Origin: a virus | IMG/VR virus record: IMGVR_UViG_3300035698_008467 | Span: 1-34,080 of that record | Reading direction: 5' to 3' (one strand) | Length of the DNA: 34,080 nucleotides | Shown: positions 29,310 to 32,283 of the stretch, piece after piece | Numbering within the stretch: the first letter of the stretch is position 1 | How the letters are laid out: the number at the start of each line of letters is the position of its first letter | Made by a program: the position numbers and the translations under genes | Notes under the pieces: generated by a model | Databases searched by the model: none | Told to the model about the DNA's origin: nothing | The model's input: only the letters and a program-made list of their open reading frames with translations

Positions 29310-29735
29310 TTATCTGGTTCTAAATGAACATGTGAATCTCCCTGATACGCTTGGAGATACTAATACTTTCTCTACTCCATGAACTTGACACGAGTTGTCA
29401 AATATAAATACATCTCCCTTGCGTAACTTAGGATAATATCTATCTTCTACGAAGTCATTAGTTACTACTTTACCATCATCCGAACAGTCTGCATTATCAT
29501 TAAGATAGAACTATCCACCTAAAAAGTCTACATCAGGTTCTGATAGCATTAATATTGCTACCATATCCTGAAACTTAGGAATAACTTGTGTTTTCTCAAC
29601 ATCTTTATGAGGTAAGATCTGTCCATTATGGCTGTATTTAAATACAGGAAGACAGAAGTCTGTAATTGGCCCATCAAAGCTTTCTCCTGTTATATCTAAC
29701 AGTTTTAACTTGATGTCTTCAATTATTTCCTTCAA
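29310..29735 (-). pseudogene. 2OG-Fe(II) oxygenase interrupted by an in-frame TAG
   Basis: A single phase from 29735 to 29310 encodes a complete 2OG-Fe(II) dioxygenase core: ILPHKD with the iron ligands His43 and Asp45, a DVDFLGG segment, then after the TAG at 29511-29513 FYLNDNADC, LRKGDVFIFDN, QVHGVEKV with the distal His119, and SGRFTCSFRTR with the 2OG-binding Arg133. The TAG sits where GG-x-FYL usually continues, so the rest of the protein is conserved in frame. The start is a TTG or lies further upstream in an AT-rich overlap. Enzymes of this type hydroxylate proteins or nucleotides. It is either a fresh nonsense mutation, suppressed amber codon or sequence error. Confidence 0.75.
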
Positions 29736-29923: not shown

Positions 29924-29929
29924 TTTAAT

Positions 29930-29941
29930 GAATATTTAAAG
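29930..29941 (-). promoter_or_regulatory. Leader motif copy 3 (CTTTAAATATTC)
   Basis: AATCTTTAAATATTC on the - strand ends 6 bases before the ATG at 29923, just downstream of the large structured region 29941-30586. Confidence 0.5.
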
Positions 29942-30586
29942 ATTATTTATATTTAATGTAATAAATTACCTAAAGGAGATAAGCTTCGATTTCTAAGAAC
30001 TAATTAAGTTAGAACTCTCTCCTTTGGTAACTATAATAACCCGTCTAGACTCTCGTAGAGTTTAGCCATCACACTAATCTCCTGAGAGTCACTCAGAGAT
30101 TTCAAGTCTTGATATTCGACGGGGATGTAAGGTGATACTTTTGCAACTCACCAATTTGAGAATTAGTAATACCCCACTAACCTGACGTAGGAATCGAAAA
30201 CTACCTACAAAAGTATCTGCAGAATCGAACTGCTTTAGTGGTGTGCAAAGGAATCGAACCTTCAGGTGTATATCTACACAGCACCAAGCGTCAATGGAAT
30301 CGAACCATCTCCCTGCCAACACACACCATAAATTATTAGGCCGAGTATCTCGCCGTTCAAGCGGTCTCCGTGTGTAAAAGGTCTTTACCTTCACCTAATA
30401 ATAGTAAAACTCTTTGACCAGACATCACTCTGGAATACCGATATTGGTTTTGACAAGAAGTATTTCTCTAATAAACACGACTGTTGATAGCAGCTAAACT
30501 ATCTTAGGGAATCCTCCTAAGTCCTGCACCAATATTTTCACAGGAACATCTCTAGTTTTTCAGTTTATTTTTAATCAAAAAGTTAA
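29941..30586 (-). ncRNA. Candidate large structured RNA with four T-loop-like hairpins
   Basis: About 650 bases without a credible gene. On the - strand four hairpins carry TTCGATT, the tRNA T-loop consensus: stems at 30293-30309, 30247-30263 and 30219-30233 with 7-base loops, and 30187-30208 with a 12-base loop. They lie inside long-range helices: GGTGTGT/GCACACC (30321-30327, 30240-30246), CCACTAA/TTAGTGG (30235-30241, 30174-30180), TTATTAGG/CCTAATAA (30394-30401, 30333-30340), CCAATAT/ATATTGG (30529-30535, 30441-30447), TCTCCTTT/AAAGGAGA (30018-30025, 29972-29979). Local stems include AATCTC/GAGATT (30076-30101) and CCAGA/TCTGG (30418-30433). T-arms are only 34-53 bases apart, too close for complete tRNAs. 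Confidence 0.6.
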
Positions 30587-32170: not shown

Positions 32171-32283
32171 TGCAGGTGGAAGGACTCGAACCTTCAAGGA
32201 TTAATAAGAGATATAACATCTAGAATCTTATCTCTATACCATGCTCAAAATAATCACTCATTTACCAATTTCGCCACACCCGC
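32171..32283 (-). tRNA. tRNA-like gene of abnormal length (Leu-like ends)
   Basis: On the - strand an acceptor stem GCGGGTG/CACCTGC (one G-U) with discriminator A encloses a Leu-type D region (TGGCGAAATTGGTAAA) and a perfect T-arm, GAAGG-TTCGAGT-CCTTC. The whole is 113 bases, about 26 more than a normal leucine tRNA. Between D and T regions there is a hairpin AGAGATA/TATCTCT. One possible anticodon loop is TTCTAGA (32219-32225), with anticodon CUA and a 4-of-5 bp stem; another weaker arm lies near 32250 but lacks U33. It may be a pseudogene, a tRNA with an insertion, or an amber suppressor. The acceptor and T-arm are convincing; identity is not. Confidence 0.5.

Follow-up and report, generated by a model that had tools for sequence, protein, structure and literature searches.

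The window analysed here is the whole of the 34,080-base virus record IMGVR_UViG_3300035698_008467, a tailed-phage genome fragment that encodes a DNA polymerase, an ATP-dependent DNA ligase, helicases and a RIIA homologue. In this phage TAG is apparently translated as an amino acid, as suggested by an in-frame TAG within the frame of a 2OG-Fe(II) oxygenase (29310-29735, - strand, context DFLGG-TAG-F). On the same strand as the flanking genes lies an interval (29924-30586) for which no convincing gene was found in either code 11 or code 15. A 101-aa GTG ORF (30089-30394) overlies the structured T-arms of this interval and is unlikely to be protein-coding, and the remaining frames are short. We also noticed a marginal Rfam tRNA match (29.5 bits) at 32171-32283 (- strand) with a Leu-like acceptor, a D-loop and a T-arm, in which the anticodon region is a long hairpin-bearing insertion with CTA in an apical TTCTAGA; it is possibly a suppressor tRNA of this apparently TAG-recoded phage.

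The original prediction described the non-coding interval as a tandem array of four T-loops on the - strand, set 34-53 bases apart. All four TTCGATT copies are present (30304-30298, 30258-30252, 30229-30223 and 30198-30192), and the first three form 7-nt loops on stems of 5, 5 and 4 bp (GATGG/CCATT, GAAGG/CCTTT and GCAG/CTGC). The fourth copy, however, lies in a GTAGG/CCTAC hairpin (30187-30208, - strand), the sole good stem of which leaves a 12-nt loop, and it is not a T-loop. The loop-to-loop distances measured 46, 29 and 31 nt, which departs from the proposed spacing. Instead of four equal T-loops, the interval contains a tRNA-sized unit with two T-arms (element A), followed by a different module with one T-arm (element B). 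Strict T-arms, defined as GTTCRANYC on a stem of at least 5 bp, numbered four on both strands of the window, in comparison to a mean of 0.1 in 200 dinucleotide shuffles; none of these 200 shuffles had two strict T-arms within 60 nt, and none matched a descriptor consisting of an acceptor, GG and two successive T-arms.

The 611-nt region was also enriched in perfect helices of at least 7 bp (18 vs 10.8 expected, with 3/300 shuffles as high), and its folding energy had a z of -2.3. Besides elements A and B, the interval includes the helices ATTATTAGG/CCTAATAAT, ATATTGGT/ACCAATAT and AAAGGAGA/TCTCCTTT. Among the predicted long-range perfect helices, the first two of these and CCACTAA/TTAGTGG do exist; however, the last one and the acceptor helix of element A cannot both form fully, since two bases are common to both. 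Taken singly, none of the long helices found outside element A exceeds chance, except perhaps the 10-bp GATACTTTTG/CAAAAGTATC helix discussed below.

Element A (30239-30327, - strand) is an 89-nt tRNA-like RNA that has no anticodon and carries two T-arms beneath a single acceptor stem. The acceptor-like GGTGTGT/GCACACC helix that had been proposed is indeed present, with the 5' strand at 30321-30327 and the 3' strand at 30240-30246, the latter being followed by a discriminator-like A at 30239. Next to the acceptor 5' strand there is an unpaired, stemless D-loop-like segment, TTGGCA (30314-30319), and then an internal T-arm, GATGG-TTCGATT-CCATT (30293-30309), occupying the place of the anticodon arm. 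The linker that follows has a second TTGG (30284-30287), which may serve as another D-loop-like partner and has an ATGG or TTGG counterpart likewise placed in most relatives, and a small, variable-arm-like hairpin, GTGTA-GATA-TACAC (30266-30279). The terminal T-arm, GAAGG-TTCGATT-CCTTT (30247-30263), leads directly into the acceptor 3' strand. The MFE fold of 30327-30239 was essentially this cloverleaf with a few isolated linker pairs, and the folding energy of the unit alone was unexceptional (z -0.96). The hairpins are T-arm mimics inside higher-order helices and not the 3' ends of separate tRNAs, in agreement with the original prediction.

The canonical tRNA features U33 with purine 37 and a D-stem are absent from element A: the internal loop TTCGATT gives T37, and the MFE fold has no D-stem. 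CCA is not encoded after the acceptor. ARAGORN made no tRNA call at this position and no score exceeded the Rfam gathering threshold (RF00005); the tRNA-Sec model (RF01852) gave 23.8 bits at 30239-30328 (E 0.26), below its gathering threshold of 47 bits. In the present analysis we defined a class of two-T-arm tRNA-like RNAs, and the window unit has its features, namely a 7-bp acceptor directly after the terminal T-arm, a TTCRANY internal T-arm that replaces the D and anticodon arms, and TGG in the unpaired segment.

To model the unit independently of the window, we built a hold-out covariance model (R1) solely from L059, L069 and L173, three viral loci with equally spaced units; this seed was chosen because the acceptor 5' strand had been misplaced in the initial MAFFT alignments. 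R1 found element A of the window at full length with 39.7 bits (E 5.1e-8, 329 kb searched), the next match being a tRNA-like unit with 20.1 bits. The best canonical tRNAs in 395 Bacteroidota genomes reached about 33 bits under R1. In an alignment of 15 element A units (A7), 98.0% of paired cells were complementary vs 63.4% in shuffled controls, with 91 vs 26.8 two-sided changes and a covariation of 0.958 vs 0.217. The acceptor helix was 98.1% paired with changes on both sides at 7/7 pairs, and covariation supported both T-arms as well; when the partner was slid by one column, the covariation signal was lost. This alignment was fitted to the structure of the model, and some units were picked with help from acceptor pairing; for the former reason we gave the hold-out search and the selection-bias test as much weight as covariation. 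For 26 distinct matches picked regardless of the acceptor, acceptor complementarity was 252, in comparison to 172 +/- 17 with swapped partners, and 0/5000 permutations were as high. TGG precedes the internal T-arm in 10/10 units that were not selected for it (0/20,000 shuffles as high). The idea that the T-loops dock with D-loop-like partners is consistent with this result and with the TTGG or ATGG preceding each T-arm of element A. The fold of element A recurs, its helices change in a compensatory manner, and we regard it as well supported, while its function is what we infer below.

Relatives were searched for in 2.9 million viral contigs with two patterns, the first being three T-loops too close for tRNAs and the second a TTGG segment followed by two T-arms. 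The first pattern gave 102 matches, many of them stemless repeats and about 60 with real stems; the stem-bearing matches group into recurrent architectures, many of which are located inside tRNA arrays. The searches revealed nothing closely related to the window RNA: DNA similarity of the 646-720 nt region gave no match in phages, the region was absent from the relatives identified by polymerase and neighbouring genes (L001 and L003-L007), and polymerase relatives with 61-64% identity did not have the RNA. The same plan recurs with differing acceptors, such as GGGGCGG/CCGCCCC (L173), AGCCGTG/CACGGCT (L156), AGTTGGG/CCCAACT (L059), GGAAGAG/CTCTTCC followed by ACCA (L149), AGCGTGT/ACACGCT in Streptococcus prophages and GAGAGCA/TGCTCTC in a Bizionia MAG. 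Elsewhere element A is a stand-alone unit of 73-99 nt, the shortest being 73 nt long (L174), and most units have A directly after the acceptor. Many units sit within tRNA arrays, and those of the window, the Bizionia contig and the streptococcal prophages stand alone. In one 121-kb phage contig (L174), two element A units that differ from each other (193-287 and 753-827, + strand) lie amid tRNA-Thr genes. The Bizionia unit (L179 1550-1643, - strand) has small ORFs nearby and no tRNA array, and is the single match in a 4.4-Mb genome. This MAG was the one positive in a host survey with R1, in which the top candidates per genome were scored for about 300 genomes of the family and 395 of the phylum; the remaining two matches were canonical tRNA-Leu. 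Judging by the top candidates scored, Bacteroidota chromosomes do not seem to carry element A as a gene family.

A census of acceptor plus T-arm units in the fetched loci gave 45 with at least one internal T-arm, a number that includes a few ordinary tRNAs or chance pairings, and 36 of the 45 had no ARAGORN call. A group of units with three T-arms (class C), 128-132 nt long and with a 7-bp closing helix of its own, was found in L020, L052, L054, L100 and L167, and includes Streptomyces phages such as Comrade. In Comrade (L195 740-871, about 77367-77498 of the genome), an annotated tRNA-Ser(tcg) overlaps the three-T-arm unit, and an annotated tmRNA is located just downstream. Further noncanonical units have three T-arms beneath one acceptor-like helix in L107 (3630-3745), L076 (3329-3445) and L117 (6515-6637), and three-T-arm units were also noted in L201/L208. 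No Rfam family scored above threshold at the window locus, and none did so in 20 relative loci or L088 except tRNA and one GOLLD. The architecture of element A matches no Rfam family, and no paper describing two-T-arm phage RNAs was found in the open-access literature searched.

Element B (30134-30238, - strand) lies directly 3' of element A and is less certain. It consists of a third T-arm, GCAG-TTCGATT-CTGC (30219-30233), and a putative pseudoknot in which GATACTTTTG (30208-30217) is a perfect 10-bp complement to CAAAAGTATC (30134-30143). The order 3' of element A is CCACTAA, the T-arm (30233-30219), the 10-bp pseudoknot helix (30217-30208/30143-30134) and TTAGTGG. The same succession of A and then B with four T-loops was observed in L059 and L091, where T-loops 2 and 3 are about 29-30 nt apart, as the 29-nt spacing in the window. 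The related class B module consists of a T-arm, the CTCGnTnnnnGAG hairpin (CTCG..GAG), nGGTR and a T-arm, and follows the 3' end of a tRNA in many phages, for example after tRNA-Cys in the Cellulophaga phages phi19:3 and phi13:2. At L109 4310-4575 (- strand) and in its relatives, the T-arm, CTCGnTnnnnGAG, GGTR and T-arm, often with a GGAAAGAC hairpin, are conserved and not in Rfam; modules of this type come directly after phage tRNAs for Cys, Phe, Trp, Ile and others. The class B core model R2 matched the window only weakly (30233-30192, 14.5 bits, E 0.0023), hardly above the 14.1 bits of a lone T-arm elsewhere. After the first T-arm of element B the CTCGnTnnnnGAG hairpin is absent, with AGATACTTTTG there instead, and a proper second T-arm is missing; for these reasons, and with 14.5 bits under R2, we call element B B-like and not a member of class B. 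It does have a pseudoknot of the class B type, likewise placed, in which the stretch that follows the first T-arm pairs with a downstream site. In class B, pairing of the hairpin loop with a downstream site received moderate and partly post hoc support, as 36/10,000 permutations were as high in a position-anchored test and the unanchored version was negative.

We compared both elements with known systems. Element A shares with canonical tRNA (RF00005) the 7-bp acceptor, the following A, the terminal T-arm, a dockable GG segment, the size and the frequent location in arrays; however, it has a second T-arm instead of the D-stem and anticodon arm. The tRNA-like domain of tmRNA has an acceptor and T-arm, a stemless D-loop and no anticodon arm, all of which it has in common with element A. 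In contrast to tmRNA, element A has no mRNA-like region and carries the second T-arm, and no Rfam tmRNA match was obtained at the locus. Viral tRNA-like structures, such as that of TYMV, are found at the 3' ends of plant RNA virus genomes, whereas element A is encoded within a DNA phage genome. Such viral structures mimic the tRNA elbow with a topology that is different elsewhere (PMC4810234). By analogy, the tRNA-like domain of tmRNA and the plant-virus structures may be functional counterparts of element A. T4 rnaC (species 1 RNA; L178 609-747, - strand), a small stable RNA of the T4 tRNA cluster, resembles element A in its 7-bp acceptor-like helix: its 3' half ends in a T-arm, then CGTTTCG, which can pair with CGGAACG further upstream, and GGATATGG lies between. 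However, rnaC has a single T-arm and is not reported by R1.

On the basis of this architecture, it seems fairly probable that 30327-30239 (- strand) encodes a non-decoding tRNA-like RNA, which would form tRNA-type elbows, be matured by tRNA enzymes and act as a mimic occupying tRNA-recognising proteins, with element B packing on its 3' end or shaping it. With one acceptor stem enclosing both T-arms, and the first of these in the place of the D and anticodon arms, the RNA would be unable to decode. Each T-loop could dock with the GG of the preceding TTGG or ATGG to give two tRNA-type elbows, in the way that D- and T-loops dock at the tRNA elbow (PMC4810234). As in tRNA biology, RNase P and a 3' processing enzyme would trim the ends of element A, which would then receive CCA. 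More speculatively, mature element A might occupy host or phage proteins that read the acceptor, T-arm and elbow, without entering decoding; candidate targets are processing, modification or CCA enzymes, EF-Tu and tRNA-targeting defence proteins. Element B, as a pseudoknotted T-arm module joined 3' of element A, would probably pack on the tRNA-like unit or shape its 3' end.

A possible, if somewhat doubtful, alternative that is compatible with this explanation is that the whole of 29924-30586 is one large ornate RNA of the GOLLD or ROOL kind, possibly oligomeric, with elements A and B as its domains. The roughly 600 nt of non-coding sequence, the excess of long helices and the pseudoknot would fit such an RNA, as would the genomic setting, GOLLD and ROOL being large structured phage RNAs with unknown function that are often near tRNA islands (PMC12286853). 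It is this setting, however, and not the fold that is common, since element A has the size of a tRNA and an acceptor of the tRNA type, and occurs elsewhere as a stand-alone unit; the GOLLD and ROOL Rfam models gave no match in the window, and the GOLLD model does match L031.

The main rival to the tRNA-mimic explanation, which we hold to be unlikely, is that element A is a processing signal similar to plant mitochondrial t-elements or the MALAT1 mascRNA. Cleavage at the tRNA-like fold by RNase P and the 3' tRNA enzyme would then separate neighbouring transcripts, leaving an excised RNA with no further role. Such a signal agrees with the tRNA-like fold and with the location of the units, which stand alone between protein genes in the window, the Bizionia contig and streptococcal prophages and are found in tRNA arrays in other phages. 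In arrays, however, ordinary tRNAs already serve that purpose. Moreover, a second T-arm that has a GG partner of its own and is conserved across unrelated phages would be more than a bare processing signal requires.

We consider it improbable that element A is a D-armless tRNA-Ser(CGA), with the internal hairpin as the anticodon arm and the loop TTCGATT reading as U33-CGA. ARAGORN calls the units of L173 and L032 tRNA-Ser(cga), and a true tRNA-Ser(CGA) with a D-arm is present in L041. However, position 37 is T and not a purine in most units, and the acceptor is mostly followed by A, in contrast to the G73 of bacterial tRNA-Ser. The loop also fits the T-loop consensus TTCRANY, and its closing pair is G-C. 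In addition, related units bear three such arms (L107, L076 and class C). These counter-arguments are in part biased by the search, the patterns of which required GTTCGANTC.

For element B, self-cleavage trimming the 3' end of element A seems very improbable. The class B module directly follows tRNA 3' ends, and theta ribozymes occupy that same place in recoded phages (PMC10879173), among which the window phage, with its apparent TAG recoding, might be counted. Theta ribozymes, however, have an HDV-like self-cleaving fold, whereas element B is built on T-arms, and T-arm, GGTA and T-arm do not make a known ribozyme fold; no Rfam family exceeded its threshold at this locus or in class B elements. 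Lastly, the reading of the T-loops as remnants of degenerate tRNA genes, the case that the original prediction had named as its refutation if conserved helices were lacking, is scarcely credible and was rejected for element A: phage tRNA arrays do decay, and the tRNA-like element at 32171-32283 with its abnormal anticodon region lies nearby, but the acceptor stems are compensated at every pair over the 15 units, the order is kept in unrelated phages, and decay would not repeatedly put intact T-arms in the anticodon position.

Beyond the window, we tentatively propose that phages of several bacterial phyla encode an unrecognised superfamily of non-decoding tRNA mimics, in which a T-arm/GG elbow is repeated under one acceptor (two arms in class A and three in class C), some with the pseudoknotted T-arm module, and which may act on host tRNA-recognising machinery or tRNA-targeting defences. 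Annotation tools for phage tRNA arrays expect an anticodon, so that acceptor-half RNAs that do not decode are missed or mislabelled, as exemplified by the tRNA-Ser annotated over the three-T-arm unit of Comrade. If these RNAs are matured like tRNAs, they would separate tRNA recognition from decoding and could be used to probe which features RNase P, CCA enzymes, EF-Tu and tRNA-targeting defence systems read. The class may also be relevant to stable RNAs that are encoded in phage tRNA clusters and still lack an explanation, e.g. T4 rnaC. Sequenced phages of Streptomyces and Streptococcus have members, and those of Cellulophaga have module B, so the question is directly testable.

Two minor observations concern single motifs. 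Another lone T-arm was noticed at L131 14540-14590 (+ strand), in a non-coding stretch of a distant relative with 37% polymerase identity. Near the 3' end of the non-coding interval of the window, AATCGAA (29991-29985, - strand), which may be there by chance, is an exact complement to all four TTCGATT copies.
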